61,962 nucleotides of DNA from Rhodanobacter denitrificans (GTDB lineage: Bacteria; Pseudomonadota; Gammaproteobacteria; Xanthomonadales; Rhodanobacteraceae): positions 1 to 61,962 of the forward strand of contig JAFIHF010000065.1 of the NCBI GenBank assembly GCA_017848855.1. The letters run 5' to 3'. This document shows, piece after piece, positions 6,995-61,962 of the stretch; the stretch's first letter is position 1, and the number at the start of each line of letters is the position of its first letter. Under the pieces are notes generated by a model. The model did no database searches, was not told where the DNA came from, and worked only from the letters and a program-made list of their open reading frames with translations. The position numbers and the translations under genes were made by a program.

Positions 6995-7882
6995 ATGGCC
7001 CAGCAGCACGACATCTACTACGTACCGAGCAAGAGCCAGTGGCCGATCGTGGCCGCGGTGGTCATGTTCCTCACCATGTTCGGCGCGGCGCACTGGCTGA
7101 ACGCGGAGCCCGGCGAGAGCGGCTTCGGCAAGACCGTGATCACGCTCGGCGCGGTCGGCGTGATCGGCATGTTCTTCGGCTGGTTCCATTCGGTGATCAA
7201 GGAATCGCTGGCCGGCCTGTACAACCCCCAGGTGGACACCTCGTTCCGCATGGGCATGATGTGGTTCATCTTCTCCGAGGTGATGTTCTTCGGCGCGTTC
7301 TTCGGCGCGCTGTTCTACATCCGCAACTTCTCGGTGCCGTGGCTGGGCGGCGAAGGCCACGGCGTGCTCACCCACCAGTTCCTCTACGACAGCTACAGCG
7401 GCGCCTGGGGCGCGGCCGGCGGCAACGGCCCGCTGCACGTCGGCGGCCCGTTCAGCACCGTGGCGCCGTGGGGCCTGCCGCTGCTGAACACGGTGATCCT
7501 GCTCAGCTCCAGCGTCACCGTGACGATCGCGCACCACGCGCTGCGCGGCGGGCACCGCGGCCGCATCCTGCTGTTCCTCGGCCTCACCGTGCTCTTGGGC
7601 GCGAGCTTCCTGTTCTTCCAGGCGCACGAGTACATGGAGGCGTACAAGGAGCTCAACCTCACCCTGCACAGCGGCGTGTACGGCTCCACCTTCTTCATGC
7701 TCACCGGCTTCCACGGCCTGCACGTGACCCTGGGCACGATCATGCTGGCGGTGATCTGGCTGCGCGTGCTGAAGGGCCACTTCAGCAAGGAACACCACTT
7801 CGGCTTCGAGGCGGTGGCGTGGTACTGGCACTTCGTCGACGTGGTCTGGCTGTGCCTGTTCCTGTTTGTATATATCCTCTGA
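6995..7882 (+). CDS. ctaE: Cytochrome c oxidase subunit III
   Basis: Structural subunit III, 295 aa with seven membrane helices. It has the family landmarks FRMGMMWFIFSEVMFF, FLFFQAHEYMEAY and the C-terminal WYWHFVDVVWLCLF. A clear ribosome site (CGGAG) lies before the ATG. It ends the first half of the oxidase cluster: a strong terminator follows 16 bp after the stop codon. Confidence 0.97.
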   Translation: MAQQHDIYYVPSKSQWPIVAAVVMFLTMFGAAHWLNAEPGESGFGKTVITLGAVGVIGMFFGWFHSVIKESLAGLYNPQVDTSFRMGMMWFIFSEVMFFGAFFGALFYIRNFSVPWLGGEGHGVLTHQFLYDSYSGAWGAAGGNGPLHVGGPFSTVAPWGLPLLNTVILLSSSVTVTIAHHALRGGHRGRILLFLGLTVLLGASFLFFQAHEYMEAYKELNLTLHSGVYGSTFFMLTGFHGLHVTLGTIMLAVIWLRVLKGHFSKEHHFGFEAVAWYWHFVDVVWLCLFLFVYIL

Positions 7883-20193: not shown

Positions 20194-22833
20194 ATGAGCA
20201 AGTCCTATTCCCGCCCCACCGTCAAGGCGGCGGCGCCCGCGCCCACGCACGTCGTCGCGGCGCAGGAAGCGTTTCGCGACAACGAGTCGCTGCTGGCCGC
20301 GCTCGGCACGTCCGTGCACGGCCTGGACGCGGAGCGCATCACCGAGCGCCTGCATCGCGACGGCGTCAACGAGGTCTCGCACGAGAAGCCGCCGCACTGG
20401 TCGCTGCAGCTGCTGCACGCGTTCAAGAACCCGTTCATCGTGGTGCTGCTGGTGCTGGCCGGCGTGCAGATCTTCACCGACGGCAGCGACCTCACCGGGC
20501 CGATCATCATCGCGGTGATGGTGGGCATCAGCGTGCTCCTGAGCTTCACCCAGGAATACCGCTCCTCGCGCGCCGCCGAGAAACTGAAGGCGATGGTGCG
20601 CAACACCGCCACGGTGACGCGGCAGGCCTCCGACGGCCACAGCGAGCAGATCGAGGTGCCGGTGGGCGAGCTGGTGGTGGGCGACATCGTGCATCTGGGC
20701 GCGGGCGACATGGTGCCCGCCGACCTGCGCCTGCTCAGCGCGAAGGATCTGTTCATCAGCCAGGCGATCCTCACCGGCGAATCGCTGCCGGTGGAGAAGG
20801 CCGCGCCCGCGCAGGCACACGGCGAGGGCGCGGGCGGCAACCCGCTGGACCTGCCCACGGTCTGCTACATGGGCACCAACGTGATCTCCGGCACCGCCAG
20901 CGCGGTGGTGGTGGCCACCGGCGCGCGCAGCTACCTCGGCTCGCTGGCGCACAGCATGACCGGCCAGCGCGTGCAGACCAGCTTCGATCGCGGCGTGAAC
21001 TCGGTGAGCTGGCTCTTGATCCGCTTCATGGCGGTGATGGTGCCGATCGTCTTCCTCATCAACGGGCTGGACAAGCACAACTGGACCGAGGCGTTCCTGT
21101 TCGCGCTGTCGGTGGCGGTGGGCCTCACGCCGGAGATGCTGCCGCTGATCGTCACCGCGAACCTCGCCAAGGGCGCGATCGCGATGTCCAAGCGCAAGGT
21201 GGTGGTGAAGCGCCTGAACGCGATCCAGAACTTCGGCGCGATGGACGTGCTGTGCACCGACAAGACCGGCACGCTGACGCTGGACAAGATCGTGCTGGAG
21301 CGCCACCTCGACCTCGACGGCGAGGAGAGCGACGAGGCGCTGGAATACGGCTACCTCAACAGCCGCTTCCAGACCGGCCTGAAGAACCTGATGGACAAGG
21401 CGGTGCTGGAGCACCGCGACCTGGAGCCGATGGCCGCGCGCTACCGCGTGGTGGACGAGATCCCGTTCGACTTCCAGCGCCGGCGCATGTCGGTGGTGGT
21501 GGCGAACGGCGGCAGCGAGCACCTCTTGATCTGCAAGGGCGCGGTGGAGGAGATGCTCTCGATCTGCGCGCACGCGCAGGTGGGCGGCGTGGTCGAGCCG
21601 ATGACCGACGAGCGCCGCCGCGAGATCAAGGCGATGACGCACCGCTTGAACGAGGACGGACTGCGCGTGCTGGTGGTGGCGGTGCGCCGCGCGCCGGCCG
21701 CCGAGCGCGCGTGGAGCGTGGCCGACGAGAACGGGCTCACCGCGGTGGGCTGCCTCGCCTTCCTCGATCCGCCGAAGGACTCCGCCGCCACCGCGATCGC
21801 CGCGCTGCACGCGCACGGCGTCGAGGTGAAGGTGATCACCGGCGACAACGAGGCGGTGACGCGCAAGATCTGCCGCGAGGTGGGACTGGACGTCACCCAC
21901 TCCGTGCAGGGCCGCGACATCGAGCCGTTGGACGAGGGCGCGCTGGACGCATTGGTCAAGCGCACCACGGTGTTCGCGAAGATGTCGCCCCTGCAGAAGG
22001 CGCGCGTGGTGAAGTCGCTGCAGCGCCAGGGCCACACCGTGGGCTTCCTCGGCGACGGCATCAACGACGCGCCCGCGCTGCACGACGCCGACGTGGGCAT
22101 CTCGGTGGACACCGCCACCGACATCGCCAAGGAGTCGGCCGACATCATCCTGCTGGAGAAGAACCTGATGGTGCTGGAGGAGGGCGTGCTGGAAGGCCGC
22201 GTCACCTTCGGCAACATCATCAAGTACATCAAGATGACCGCCAGCTCGAACTTCGGCAACATGTTCAGCGTGCTGGTGGCGAGCGCGTTCCTGCCGTTCC
22301 TGCCGATGCTGCCGCTGCAGATCCTGGTGCTGAACCTGCTGTACGACATCTCGCAGCTGTCGATCCCGTTCGACCGCATGGACGACGACTACCTGCGCCG
22401 CCCGCGCAAATGGGACGCCAGCGACATCGGCCGCTTCATGGTGTGGATCGGCCCGGTCAGCTCGATCTTCGACATGACCACGTTCTGGCTGATGTGGCAC
22501 GTGTTCGGCGCGAACTCGGCAGAACACCAGGCGCTGTTCCAGTCCGGCTGGTTCATCGAAAGCCTGCTCACGCAGACCCTGATCGTGCACATGATCCGCA
22601 CCCGGCGCATCCCGTTCCTGCAGAGCGCGGCGGCCGCGCCGGTGCTGGGGCTCACCACCGCGATCATCGTGATCGGCATGCTGATCCCCTTCACCGACCT
22701 GGGCGCGAAGATCGGCATGCTGCCGTTGCCGGGTGTCTATTTCGCGTGGGTGGCGGCCACCGTGCTCACCTATTGCGCGCTGACGCAGCTGGTGAAGGTG
22801 ATCTATATCCGGCGTTACGGGCGCTGGCTGTAG
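20194..22833 (+). CDS. mgtA: P-type Mg2+-importing ATPase
   Basis: MgtA/MgtB P3B-type ATPase, 879 aa, bringing Mg2+ into the cytoplasm when it is scarce. The phosphorylated Asp is D356 in CTDKTGTLT; the actuator motif ILTGESLPVEK and the hinge GDGINDAPALHDADVGISVD are present. The N-terminal region and ten helices match MgtA. AAGGA lies 13 nt before the start, slightly far, which fits control by the leader. No PhoPQ genes are in the window. The gene is followed by repeats, not by mgtC. Confidence 0.95.
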   Translation: MSKSYSRPTVKAAAPAPTHVVAAQEAFRDNESLLAALGTSVHGLDAERITERLHRDGVNEVSHEKPPHWSLQLLHAFKNPFIVVLLVLAGVQIFTDGSDLTGPIIIAVMVGISVLLSFTQEYRSSRAAEKLKAMVRNTATVTRQASDGHSEQIEVPVGELVVGDIVHLGAGDMVPADLRLLSAKDLFISQAILTGESLPVEKAAPAQAHGEGAGGNPLDLPTVCYMGTNVISGTASAVVVATGARSYLGSLAHSMTGQRVQTSFDRGVNSVSWLLIRFMAVMVPIVFLINGLDKHNWTEAFLFALSVAVGLTPEMLPLIVTANLAKGAIAMSKRKVVVKRLNAIQNFGAMDVLCTDKTGTLTLDKIVLERHLDLDGEESDEALEYGYLNSRFQTGLKNLMDKAVLEHRDLEPMAARYRVVDEIPFDFQRRRMSVVVANGGSEHLLICKGAVEEMLSICAHAQVGGVVEPMTDERRREIKAMTHRLNEDGLRVLVVAVRRAPAAERAWSVADENGLTAVGCLAFLDPPKDSAATAIAALHAHGVEVKVITGDNEAVTRKICREVGLDVTHSVQGRDIEPLDEGALDALVKRTTVFAKMSPLQKARVVKSLQRQGHTVGFLGDGINDAPALHDADVGISVDTATDIAKESADIILLEKNLMVLEEGVLEGRVTFGNIIKYIKMTASSNFGNMFSVLVASAFLPFLPMLPLQILVLNLLYDISQLSIPFDRMDDDYLRRPRKWDASDIGRFMVWIGPVSSIFDMTTFWLMWHVFGANSAEHQALFQSGWFIESLLTQTLIVHMIRTRRIPFLQSAAAAPVLGLTTAIIVIGMLIPFTDLGAKIGMLPLPGVYFAWVAATVLTYCALTQLVKVIYIRRYGRWL

Positions 22834-22837
22834 CTTC

Positions 22838-23321
22838 AGCCCCCTCTCCTCCAACGGATTCATCGTTGGGGGAGAGGGTTGGGGTGAGGGGGCTTTGCTT
22901 CTGCTTCTGTGCTCTCGCAAGTTTCAGAGCGGTTTCGTGCGCCTGCCGGCGCCCGAGTTACTTCTCCTTTGCTTGTCCACGCACGCGCAGGAGCGCGTGC
23001 GAACGGCGAAGCCGGCCCGAAGGGCGGAGGGCAGGATGCCCGGAGTCAAGGAGAAGTAACCAAGAGGAAACGACACCCCGCGGCGGCGCTTTCCGTCCAT
23101 CCATGGACGGAAAGTCCGTGAGCCGTGGCCGGGCTTTTCGGCCGGGCATCCTGCCCGGTCGAAAAGGCGAGTCCATCCGTGGACTCGCCGGCTGCGCGGC
23201 CTGATCGTCCACGTCTCACCGCCGCCGAGGGGCCCCGGGAAAAGCAGCGCGCTCCAAGCGCGCAGAAGCAACAGCACCCCACCCCAACCCTCCCCTGCAC
23301 GCAGGGGAGGGAGATACAGCG
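22838..23321 (+). repeat. Composite hairpin repeat, copy 2 (modules A-E)
   Basis: The most complete copy in the window. Module A is the CTCTCCCCC palindrome (22838-22893). Module B has closing stem GTTACTTCTCCTT (22957-22969) with AAGGAGAAGTAAC (23048-23060), enclosing several hairpins. Module C has a hairpin near 23090, then TTTTCG-CCGGGCA (23135-23148) with TGCCCGG-CGAAAA (23152-23165), and GGCGAGTCCA (23166-23175) with TGGACTCGCC (23180-23189). Module D ends with GCGCGCT/AGCGCGC, and module E with a CCCTCCCCTGC palindrome. ORFs across it are not credible proteins. With copy 3 it occupies most of the 972-bp gap between mgtA and the Na/Pi gene. Confidence 0.85.
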
Positions 23322-23459
23322 CGAGGGGAGGCGAAGCGCTGCGAGGCTTTGTTCCTCAGTTTCCAGATACGTCGCGGGGTGGCCGCTGTAGGGCGACGTG
23401 TCGACGAGCATTGGTCCAATCCCCTCGACACGGCGGGCTTGTAGGGTCGGCGGATTGAA

Positions 23460-23705
23460 CAGGCCATTTCTCTTGGTTACTTCTCTTGACTCCGGGCATC
23501 CTGCCCTACGCCCTTCGGGCCGGCTTCGCCGTTCGCCACCGCTCCTGCGGTGGCGTGGGCCAGCAAAGAGAAGTGACTCGGGCGCCGGCAGGCGACCGAA
23601 ACCGCTCTGTCGCTTGCCGCAGACGAGCCAAGGTGCGGAACCGAAAGGCAGTCGCGAGCACCCGCCCCTCACCCCAACCCTCTCCCCCAAGGTGAGAGGG
23701 GGCAA
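23460..23705 (-). repeat. Composite hairpin repeat, copy 3 (modules A-B, inverted)
   Basis: It reads on the minus strand, so it faces copy 2. The closing stem is GTTACTTCTCTT (23476-23487) with AAGAGAAGTGAC (23566-23577), including one G-U type pair. The inner hairpin CGCCACCGC/GCGGTGGCG keeps the loop tcct of copy 1 but has different arms. It stops after module B; modules C-E are missing. The stretch 23322-23459 between copies 2 and 3 shows no gene or repeat that I recognise. Confidence 0.8.
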
Positions 23706-23805
23706 CACTTGGCGCGACAGGCGACCAGAACCGCCCTGTCGCTCGCGGCAGGCGTACAACCCCACCTTCAACCATGCGCAAGCAGCAAAGAACCCGGAGC
23801 CCATC

Positions 23806-33379: not shown

Positions 33380-33524
33380 CTCGATTCTCTCCCTCTCCCC
33401 CGGCTGCGCCGGGGGAGAGGGTTGGGGTGAGGGGGGTCTTGGCTGTTGTTCTGGATATGGGCGTGGAGGCGAAGAGCGCCCCCTCACCCCAGCCCTCTCC
33501 CCCAACGGCGTTGGGGGAGAGGGA
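33380..33524. repeat. Two opposed CTCTCCCCC palindromes between ABC genes
   Basis: The first palindrome (about 33382-33436) and the second (about 33478-33524) point in opposite directions around a 40-bp spacer. The second touches the stop codon of the ATPase gene. In the transcript they would form two strong hairpins, or one very long one, between ATPase and permease cistrons, and so could set their ratio. Confidence 0.8.
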
Positions 33525-33525
33525 G

Positions 33526-34488
33526 TCATGCAGCTACCTTGTCGCGGCCCTGCTCCACCAGCCGCACGAACAGCTCCTCCAGCCGGTTGGTCTTGTTGCG
33601 CATCGAGGTCACCGTGACGCCGTGCGCGGTGAGCGCCGCGAACAGCGAGTTGAGGTCGTGGGTGCGCGCCATCTCCGCCTCCAGCGTGTGCTCGTCCACG
33701 CGGCGCAGCGCCACGCCGGGCAGCACGGGCAGGCCGTCCGGCACGCGCGTCACGTCGAGCACGAAGGTCTCCACGTCGAGTTTGGCCAGGAGCCGCTTCA
33801 TCGAGGTGTTCTCCACGATCGTGCCGTGGTCGATGATCGCGATGTTGCGGCACAGCTGCTCGGCTTCCTCCAGATAGTGCGTGGTGAGGATCACCGTGGT
33901 GCCGGCCGCGTTGATGCCGCTGACGAACTGCCACATCGAGCGGCGGATCTCGATGTCCACGCCGGCGGTGGGCTCGTCGAGGATCAAGAGCTTCGGCTCG
34001 TTCATCATCGCGCGGGCGATCATCAGGCGCCGCTTCATGCCGCCCGACAGCTCGCGCGCCTGGTGGCGGGCCTTGTCCCACAGGCGCAGCTCCTTCAGGT
34101 ATTTCTCCGCGCGCTCGGCGGCGATCCTGCGCGGGATGCCGTAGAAGCCCGCCTCGTTGACGCAGATGTCGAACGGTTTCTCGAACTGGTTGAAGTTGAT
34201 CTCCTGCGGCACCAGGCCGATCAGCTTCATCGCCTCGTTGCGCTGCCGGTTCACCGACACGCCGAACACATGCGCGTCGCCGCCGCTGGCGTTCACCAGC
34301 GAGGAGAGGATGCCGATCAGGGTGGATTTGCCGGCGCCGTTGGGGCCTAGCAGGGCGAAGAAGTCGCCGGGCTGCACGGTCAGCGAGACGCCCTTGAGCG
34401 CCTCCACGCCGTTGCCGTAGGTCTTGCGCAGGTTGTCGACGACGAGCGCGGGGGCGGTACTCGAATACGACAGGCTCATGGGCTGCAT
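33526..34488 (-). CDS. ABC transporter ATP-binding protein (YadG-like)
   Basis: A 320-aa ATPase with Walker A GPNGAGKSTL, signature LSGGMKRRL and Walker B LLILDEPTAG, plus a C-terminal extension of about 80 aa typical of YadG. It energises the permease at 32597-33376. The start ATG may be 34488 or 34479. A TATAAT at 34508-34513 on the minus strand predicts a very short 5' leader. It is divergent from the ferredoxin reductase gene. Confidence 0.92.
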   Translation of the reverse strand: MQPMSLSYSSTAPALVVDNLRKTYGNGVEALKGVSLTVQPGDFFALLGPNGAGKSTLIGILSSLVNASGGDAHVFGVSVNRQRNEAMKLIGLVPQEINFNQFEKPFDICVNEAGFYGIPRRIAAERAEKYLKELRLWDKARHQARELSGGMKRRLMIARAMMNEPKLLILDEPTAGVDIEIRRSMWQFVSGINAAGTTVILTTHYLEEAEQLCRNIAIIDHGTIVENTSMKRLLAKLDVETFVLDVTRVPDGLPVLPGVALRRVDEHTLEAEMARTHDLNSLFAALTAHGVTVTSMRNKTNRLEELFVRLVEQGRDKVAA

Positions 34489-52142: not shown

Positions 52143-52884
52143 TCCCGACGATCTCGGCGACGACCTGCAGCAGGGCCTGTTCTCGCACCTGATCGAGCTG
52201 CGCTCGCGTTTGCTCAAGGCGGTCGCCGCCGTGCTGCTGGTGCTGGTGGCGCTGGTGCCGTTCGCGAACCGGCTGTACTCGGAGCTCGCCGCGCCGCTGG
52301 TGGCGCGCCTGCCGCAGGGCGCGCACCTGATCGCCACCGAGGTGGCCAGTCCGTTCATCACCCCGCTCAAGCTCGCGTTCTACACCGCGCTGTTCATCAG
52401 CATGCCGGTGATCCTGTACCAGCTGTGGGCCTTCGTCAGCCCCGGCCTGTACAAGCACGAGAAGCGCCTCGCGCGGCCGCTGCTGGTCGCCGCGCTGGCG
52501 CTGTTCTACTGCGGCTGCGCGTTCGCGTATTTCCTGGTGCTGCCGGCGGCGTTCCGCTTCCTTACCGCGGTGACCCCCGCGGGCGTGGAGATGATGACCG
52601 ACATCACGCACTACCTCGACTTCGTGATGCTGATGTTCTTCGCGTTCGGCCTGTGCTTCGAGGTGCCGGTGGCGGTGGTGATCCTCGCCGCGGTGGGCGT
52701 GGTGGACCTCGCCAAGCTGCGCAACGCGCGCCGCTACGCGATCGTGGGCGCGTTCGCGGTGGCCGCGATCATCACCCCGCCCGACATCACCTCGATGATC
52801 ATGCTCGGCATCCCGATGTGCCTGCTCTACGAGCTGGGCATCCTCGCGGTGCGCTGGTTGCTGCCGGGCAAGGCAGCGGGCTAG
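52129..52884 (+). CDS. tatC: Twin-arginine translocase subunit TatC
   Basis: TatC is the receptor for twin-arginine signals: 251 aa, six helices. Landmarks are HLIELRSRLLKAV at the N-terminus, ASPFITPLKLAFYTALFISMP in part, and FGLCFEVPVAVVIL. It closes tatABC. Two palindromes follow before the convergent sulfatase gene. Confidence 0.96.
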   Translation: MAATDPDDLGDDLQQGLFSHLIELRSRLLKAVAAVLLVLVALVPFANRLYSELAAPLVARLPQGAHLIATEVASPFITPLKLAFYTALFISMPVILYQLWAFVSPGLYKHEKRLARPLLVAALALFYCGCAFAYFLVLPAAFRFLTAVTPAGVEMMTDITHYLDFVMLMFFAFGLCFEVPVAVVILAAVGVVDLAKLRNARRYAIVGAFAVAAIITPPDITSMIMLGIPMCLLYELGILAVRWLLPGKAAG

Positions 52885-52887
52885 AAG

Positions 52888-53003
52888 CGCCCCCTCACCC
52901 CAATCCTCTTCCCCGGCGCAGCCGGCGGAGAGGGGGCAGAGCACACGACTCCCTCTCCCCCAACGGCTTCATGTTGGGGGAGAGGGTTGGGGTGAGGGGG
53001 CCT
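52888..53003. repeat. Two CTCTCCCCC-type palindromes after tatC
   Basis: One imperfect copy (about 52888-52937) and one strong copy (about 52950-53003) whose arms CTCTCCCCCAACGGC and the complementary GTTGGGGGAGAG make a hairpin of 12 bp or more. They fill the gap between convergent tatC and the sulfatase gene, where they probably terminate both. Confidence 0.8.
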
Positions 53004-53008
53004 CTGCC

Positions 53009-61543: not shown

Positions 61544-61962
61544 TCTCCCTCTCCCCTTTGGGGAGAGGGTTGGGGTGAGGGGCGGGTGCTCGCGAGAATC
61601 TTTCACTTCCGCAGTTTGGCTCGCCTGCGGCGGGCTTTCGGACGCCTGCCGGCGCCCGAGCTACTTTCTCTTTGCGTGCCCAAAGAGAAAGTAGCCAAAG
61701 AGAAAGGGCACCCCGCGGCGACGCTTTCCTTCCATCCATGGACGGAAAGTCCGTGAGTCGGGGCCGGGCTTTTCGAGCGGGCTCCTGCCCGCGCGAAAAG
61801 GCGTTGCCCTCCCTGGCAATGCCCGCTGCGCGGCCTCCTCGTCCCCGCCTCACCGTCGCCGAGGGGCCCCCGGGAAAAGCAGCGCGCTCCCAGCGCGCAG
61901 AAGCAACGGCAAGATCAAGAGCACCCCACCCCAACCCTCCCCTGCACGCAGGGGAGGGAGAT
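61544..61962 (+). repeat. Composite hairpin repeat, copy 4 (modules A-E, short form)
   Basis: Module A at 61544-61582. Module B is a simple hairpin: GCTACTTTCTCTTTG (61660-61674) with a perfect 15-bp complement (61681-61695) around a 6-nt loop; the roughly 75-90-nt interior of the other copies is missing. Module C: TTTTCG-GCGGGC (61770-61782) with GCCCGC-CGAAAA (61787-61799) and GGCGTTGCC (61800-61808) with GGCAATGCC (61815-61823). D and E follow to the window edge. No gene is supported in 61536-61962. Confidence 0.85.

Follow-up and report, generated by a model that had tools for sequence, protein, structure and literature searches.

A two-ended composite repeat of the Rhodanobacteraceae with covarying hairpin arms, nearly fixed GGA/TCC loops and a module related by sequence and fold to the core of tRNA-linked repeats

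The REP, BIME and REPIN repeats of bacteria associate with RAYT transposases, and the BOX elements of Streptococcus pneumoniae are modular composites whose middle modules vary between copies. The tRNA-linked repeats (TLRs) of E. coli were described in 1978 and, by the account of Stenum et al. (2021, PMC8144298), had no known function before their study. As given in the passages of that study available to us, E. coli has 22 TLRs, homologues of rrB were reported in at least 31 species from 12 genera, all of them Enterobacteriales, and the RrB RNA binds CsrA through its GGA loops; the scores of the 19 tRNA-operon TLRs as CsrB-type RNAs are lower than 0.01, and the phenotypes are modest. The same passages record the wide use of the rrnB T1-T2 stretch on plasmids and make no mention of TLR mobility. 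In our literature search for 'tRNA-linked repeat', this paper was the sole match among the best-ranked papers. In Xanthomonas, according to the consulted parts of another report, an RsmA-sequestering RNA named RsmU derives from a 3' UTR (PMC7694677). Here we describe a long non-coding composite repeat, spread among soil bacteria, that shares features with several of these systems, and for which a literature search found no description.

The window analyzed in this study is a stretch of 61,962 nt from Rhodanobacter denitrificans, which constitutes contig C31 of a 3.49-Mb draft (the source genome). A previous sequence-only reading had proposed four separate copies of a chain of hairpins in this window, with arms that differ between copies and stay paired. 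The arms it quoted are present in the sequence where it had placed them and the chains of hairpins are real, but the division into four copies has to be redrawn. The stretches at 22838-23321 and 23460-23705 are the two inverted ends of a single composite (approximately 22842-23705), and the proposed first and fourth copies are the ends of two further composites truncated by the contig edges, so that the window contains three elements. The 696-nt strand from 22925 to 23620 folds back end to end (z = -27.8, 20 shuffles), and the complete composite is flanked by an upstream gene ending at 22833 and a downstream gene starting at about 23806. Its modules are arranged in the order A, stem with B, C, spacer, stem' with B', and A'. 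Terminal inverted repeats are present at the ends (AGCGGTTTCG...CGAAACCGCT), and no target-site duplication is evident in the flanks that were inspected. Members of the family measure about 0.5-0.9 kb and consist of two inward-facing multi-hairpin halves. Each half carries a terminal repeat, a closing stem and, in most cases, a multibranched domain, either C or C', its mirror homologue. Where 22842-23705 has the spacer, other copies have in their right half C', a diverged mirror unit with the fold of C. Hairpin cassettes can occupy the loops of the composite, and module B is one such cassette. No part of the window reached the gathering score of an Rfam family, and the search for a known RNA family at 22800-23800 returned just four weak matches with E values up to 1. 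A coding remnant in the spacer was discarded by a by-eye check, as the frames are not kept between species, and the element contains no protein.

The complete composite (22842-23705, plus strand) begins a few bases past the stop codon of the upstream gene with the left A hairpin, a REP-like structure at 22842-22891. The left terminal repeat TCGCAAGTTTCAGAGCGGTTTCG and the hairpin CGCCTGCCGGCG follow at 22914-22956, and the left closing stem (22957-23060) pairs 22957-22969 with 23048-23060 and holds module B in its loop. Module B (22980-23048), the TLR-core homologue, has its GGA loops on the plus strand and scores 90.3 bits with R1, a covariance model built from 48 B copies with E. coli excluded. 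The multibranched module C (23076-23232), delineated by fold, covariation and loops, comprises a closing helix, hairpin C1, a long-range helix, hairpins C2 and C3 and a small hairpin (z = -6.7), with the separate hairpin C4 at 23247-23263 recognized by fold and covariation. The loops of module C present TCC on the plus strand and GGA on the opposite one. Next come an inner REP-like hairpin (CACCCCACCCCAACCCTCCCC..GGGGAGGGAG, 23274-23313), which is missing from some other copies, and the conserved spacer (23340-23464), all of these features lying on the plus strand. The right half is oriented on the minus strand and comprises the right closing stem (23476-23577; 23476-23487 paired with 23566-23577), module B' in the loop of this stem (23487-23555, GGA strand minus, 91.5 bits with R1) and the right A' hairpin (23665-23705). 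The cut composite at the contig start (1-241, minus strand) retains part of C, a closing stem (33-45 with 122-134), module B (44-112, model R1), the terminal repeat and an A hairpin (about 196-241) directly past the 3' end of a minus-strand gene. The third composite (61544-61962, plus strand) is a left half truncated by the contig end, with an A hairpin, a short stem without B (about 61660-61695), C and the inner hairpin.

The A hairpins (CCCTCTCC..GGAGAGGGTTGGGGTGAGGGG) are a separate, independent REP-like repeat, which also forms REPIN-like inverted pairs without the composite at about 33380-33533 and 52883-53006 in the window. REPINs mobilized by a RAYT are expected to have a linked or co-resident Y1 transposase; such mobilization was rejected on the grounds that none of 30 Y1 loci has the A repeat and that 7 of the 15 genomes of the genus lack a Y1 match. 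Another repeat, the CACTG MITE with ends CACTGSTGTCCGGAATATT, occurs at 69 places in the source genome (at most two mismatches), sits in REP-like palindromes and shows duplications of about 9 bp in some copies, as judged by eye. Inside it, some copies contain the composite (L034, L035, L060, L047, L028, and L192) and others just a short REP pair; L189-L191 represent a small form. The CACTG MITE was also considered as the element itself and was rejected, since its ends find no match in composite-rich genomes such as G001, G002, G003, G005, and G007.

The composite is present in dozens of copies in the source genome, with at least 65 matches to the B half and at least 49 to the C half; both counts are lower bounds because 40 candidates were scored in each case, of 293 and 172, respectively. 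Many of the matches on other contigs are located at contig starts or ends of the draft. The 484-bp left part (22838-23321) has matches in 40 of 61 genomes, namely the source genome and 60 relatives. Within the genus, 14 of 15 genomes have a match, and the one that does not (G012) is an 85% complete genome of 1.5 Mb. The exact B core was found in at least 98 stretches, and the matches listed include named records of Rhodanobacter, Dyella, Fulvimonas, and Dokdonella. A search of two collections for plasmids or phages that carry this 484-bp stretch gave no match at an E value of 1e-5.

Comparison of orthologous sites revealed both empty and shared places. The 22838 site is empty in G001, G003, G004, and G014, and in G007 it contains no composite and a lone, less perfect A-like hairpin. 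The 61540 site is empty in the five relatives compared (G001, G004, G007, G011, and G014), and the window-start site has an A hairpin alone in G007, where short tandem units of CCCGAAT adjoin elements. A long GGCTTT array lies beside the element at another locus, L067. In G011 the 22838 site is occupied by an element with a C' right half and without B, which implies either an exchange of halves and modules or two separate hits on the site. The orthologous elements of G000 and G011 are not alike in their halves and modules. Several other sites are common to different species, and some elements are old residents. The earlier suggestion of a mobile non-coding element is thus supported as far as a dispersed non-coding element is concerned.

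The covariation of the hairpin arms proposed from the window is confirmed by the family. Using the structure of the 22838-23321 copy alone, 44 of 71 pairs change on both sides in 73 diverse copies, in which 89.9% of 5007 cells pair. Double changes are found in 615 cells compared with a shuffled mean of 204, and the covariation score of 0.324 drops to 0.121 upon shuffling (none of 500 shuffles reaches the observed value) and to at most 0.073 when the partner is slid. Orthologous copies across species contain 28 double changes versus 4.9 expected, which are not 28 independent events since species recur among the comparisons, and which show that the covariation is not solely a matter of shuffling between paralogues. 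The 24 locus pairs supplied for this analysis yielded 14 unit comparisons, since a comparison required an identical model label on both units. In the seven closer ones (93-100% identity) single changes occur but double changes do not, and all 28 double changes fall in the seven distant ones (82-90%), as stepwise compensation predicts; unpaired sites change more than paired ones. While the arms of C1-C4 take 55, 44, 55, and 42 distinct sequences in 118 copies, TCC is found within the central ten bases of these hairpins in 110/117, 109/117, 117/118, and 89/118 copies, respectively, and GGA in their loop regions in none of the 117-118 copies examined per hairpin. Of 99 aligned copies of module B, 95 carry GGA in hairpin 1 and 95 in hairpin 4. 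The arms therefore stay complementary as their sequence drifts, and the loops are nearly fixed, with GGA on one strand and TCC on the other, a pattern that may fit the earlier suggestion of a protein-binding array. In a few copies an extra hairpin is found inside the C1 or C2 loop.

A preference for G-U pairs is expected for an RNA structure selected on one strand. The 80 copies of module C have 5315 Watson-Crick, 49 G-U, 60 A-C, and 194 other cells, compared with 2707, 176, 17, and 108 in the RNase P RNA of 30 relatives, a control taken on the sense strand with the Rfam structure; in 11 genomes of the genus the control has 48 G-U and 4 A-C cells. The C' unit (38 copies) has 79 G-U versus 45 A-C cells, 53 of those 79 falling in three doubtful pairs, and module B (99 distinct rows of a model-fitted alignment) has a G-U to A-C ratio of 34:29, or 30:13 when the loop-adjacent pair is excluded. 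Single changes between orthologues lead to G-U in 11 cases, to A-C in 22 and to other mismatches in 38. In module C, flips of the G-C to C-G kind are more numerous than transition-type changes (295 vs 97), the opposite of RNase P (94 vs 159). The suggestion of a structured RNA, in its ordinary one-strand form, is consequently not sustained for module C, as its G-U cells are not commoner than A-C cells, and the constraint looks symmetric for both strands. Such pairing without wobble is consistent with selection on both strands, with DNA hairpins or with a copying process.

By sequence and fold, module B can be identified as a homologue of the TLR core represented by rrB and rttR of E. coli. With model R1, rrB scores 57.5 bits (E = 1.8e-11), and three rttR repeats are matched at E = 4-5.5e-4; the B copies of the window score 90-92 bits, two of them being part of the R1 seed. 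Weaker R1 matches are located within module C of L147 (32.6 bits) and L175 (32.8 bits). The core sequence and fold of TLRs are present in the window B, and the 3' end identical to that of an upstream tRNA or rRNA is absent from the window, so that B, lying in a stem loop without tRNA or rRNA linkage, represents a TLR-core homologue in a new setting rather than a TLR. Among the pairs of the B hairpins, 13 of 22 change on both sides in a set (A2) that was picked for intact arms with GGA and is biased towards pairing, as is one earlier hairpin set chosen by best arms.

Within the class, model R1 matches 80 of 229 genomes, which represent 72 of 196 genera. In a phylum sample it matches 38 of 200 genomes, 11 of them within the class and 27 outside, of which 21 come from one family. 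In that family, f195, the 21 genomes have up to 21 matches each. The exact 33-base B core was detected outside the Rhodanobacteraceae in Idiomarina zobellii, Aliiglaciecola, and Alteromonas, as well as in MAGs labelled Thioalkalivibrio, Nitrococcus, Sedimenticola, Chromatiaceae, and others, some of which are perhaps mis-binned. Outside the family B stands alone, without the composite. The RtT family (RF00391) matches L320 once (58.2 bits), where B sits in the T-loop of a tRNA 3' fragment, and L381 twice; at L323 we read B as lying within a partial 5S rRNA copy, and in several Thioalkalivibrio records B is inside A-type REP hairpins. This layout recurs in E. coli K-12, at rttR next to tyrV and between both rrnB terminators. 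B often occupies hairpin loops, such as tRNA T-loops.

At the orthologous site Z, the elements of G011 and G007 are nearly identical, except that one contains B (~66 bp) in its right stem and the other lacks precisely this module. The 98 distinct B junctions comprise 40 after GA, 46 after CA (almost all of these in the stem of the composite), 1 after TA and 11 after other letters, and no target duplication was seen at these junctions. Among 19 class-level copies, 16 follow GA, 2 CA and 1 GC; ten of these have, in our reading, the surroundings of a tRNA T-loop. Of 20 B loci retrieved, 13 contain a tRNA match. At L314 (about 7742-7813), a B core after GA interrupts an apparent reading frame that we take to be a transposase.

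The 82 element sites include 37 between convergent, 35 between tandem and 3 between divergent genes, with 7 unclear, compared with 82 convergent, 204 tandem, and 78 divergent adjacent gene pairs in eight orthologous regions used as a control; orthologous sites in different species were counted apart, and gene orientation at the 82 sites was called by a simple third-position G+C script. The elements are thus located where transcription enters from one side or from both, and seldom between divergent genes. The source genome encodes CsrA. Across the class, CsrA was matched in 72 of 80 genomes with B and in 122 of 149 without it, a weak association (one-sided p = 0.07), and three of the eight B-bearing genomes without a CsrA match are at least 95% complete (G072, G182, and G254). 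Among the matches listed, five genomes (G121, G185, G192, G205, and G285) have B downstream of csrA, on its strand and at a distance of no more than ~0.65 kb; tRNA genes adjoin B in at least three of these and may fully account for the proximity.

Our preferred reading, which is tentative and which we would not call probable, is that the composite serves as a two-sided 3'-end decoy or shield for CsrA/RsmA. We infer that read-through transcripts would arrive from either side; the fold would hence be constrained on both strands, and the lack of wobble preference would arise because the transcripts of both strands need it. Whichever transcript forms, its folded halves would expose several GGA-loop hairpins that would bind CsrA/RsmA in the way published for rrB, and the repeats could then act as dispersed bidirectional RNA decoys or shields at 3' ends. 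Module B would spread by insertion next to A, often into hairpin loops, and recombination between repeats would mix the copies. In favour of this reading we count the structure with its covariation, the near-fixed loops, the position of the sites, the kinship of B with TLRs and its precise presence or absence at site Z, the published CsrA binding of RrB, the csrA gene of the source genome and the 3'-UTR precedent in Xanthomonas. Pairing without wobble is also consistent with a constraint at the DNA level, which speaks against the decoy, as do the weak class-wide association of CsrA with B and the eight B-bearing genomes lacking a CsrA match, the modest phenotypes and very low scores published for TLRs of tRNA operons, the G-U excess of C' (most of its G-U cells being in three doubtful pairs) and the missing terminal duplication. 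The enrichment between convergent genes, the near absence between divergent ones and the very stable folds could also be produced by a bidirectional transcription barrier or an mRNA 3'-end stabilizer with no specific protein partner; we give this possibility little chance, as it leaves the fixed GGA/TCC loops and the kinship with TLR cores unexplained.

A selfish element whose hairpins matter as DNA, in cruciform or single-stranded form, and which is moved by a trans-acting transposase or replication enzyme, would be a REPIN- or MITE-like passenger surviving best at 3' ends. We consider this rather unlikely, although it would account for the absence of a wobble preference in C, the usual occurrence of B after GA or CA and the absence of an observed target duplication, the empty sites, the A-type REP hairpins that adjoin the composite and the nesting of some composites in the MITE with terminal repeats CACTGSTGTCCGGAATATT. 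It has to be set against the lack of a linked transposase, the Y1 loci without the A repeat in their stretches, the several composite-rich genomes among the seven without a Y1 match, the restriction of the CACTG repeat to just 6 of 31 genomes, the long residence of several elements and the fixed GGA/TCC loops, which it does not explain. Neutral upkeep, in which one arm is recopied from its partner by template switching during replication, or whole hairpins are swapped between repeats by gene conversion, with no selection on structure, appears improbable to us. Template switching can create and maintain stems, as stated in the consulted part of one study (PMC8794818), and the purely Watson-Crick pairing, the excess of flips and the differing halves and modules of G000 and G011 would suit such a process. 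However, double changes are confined to the distant orthologues, paired sites change less than unpaired ones, and the copying model, as outlined in the portion seen of a further study (PMC8604942), predicts loop inversion, whereas the loop regions of C1-C4 never show GGA.

Beyond the decoy reading of the composite, TLR cores may be one visible branch of an unrecognized class of mobile cassettes made of hairpins. These would insert next to A without target duplication, typically into the loops of hairpins (tRNA T-loops, 5S rRNA, REPs and stems of larger repeats), keep their GGA loops, let their arms drift and build composites acting as dispersed bidirectional CsrA/RsmA decoys, a generalization that we regard as unlikely at present. 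The analysis ties an abundant repeat of the Rhodanobacteraceae to the TLRs of E. coli and to the rrnB T1-T2 stretch, and provides rules for the cassettes that can be tested, namely a position after GA or CA, a fixed GGA and free arms. Covariation without wobble may mark a structure that both strands require or that is maintained in the DNA itself, and either case bears on the reading of covariation as evidence for RNA.

Among the described systems, the BOX elements resemble the composite in their modular build, and their host is unrelated. MITEs share with it the non-coding nature, the terminal inverted repeats and the many copies, but no target-site duplication is established for the composite. 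The A hairpins resemble REP, BIME and REPIN repeats as intergenic palindromes in inverted pairs, whereas the composite is far longer, is multibranched and has no linked RAYT that we could find. Xanthomonas, the host of RsmU, belongs to the same order as the organism of the window. RsmU, likened here by its description, is likewise a 3'-UTR RNA, sequestering a CsrA homologue, but it is a single processed mRNA tail, in contrast to the dispersed repeat (PMC7694677, as described in the parts consulted). The TLRs rrA/rrB/rrF and rttR of E. coli lie in duplicated 3' ends of tRNA or 5S rRNA genes, a terminal duplication that defines them and is absent here, whereas B in the window lies inside the stem loop of a long intergenic composite; both cores contain four hairpins in matching order with GGA in hairpins 1 and 4, and both end in GGAGTA or a similar sequence.
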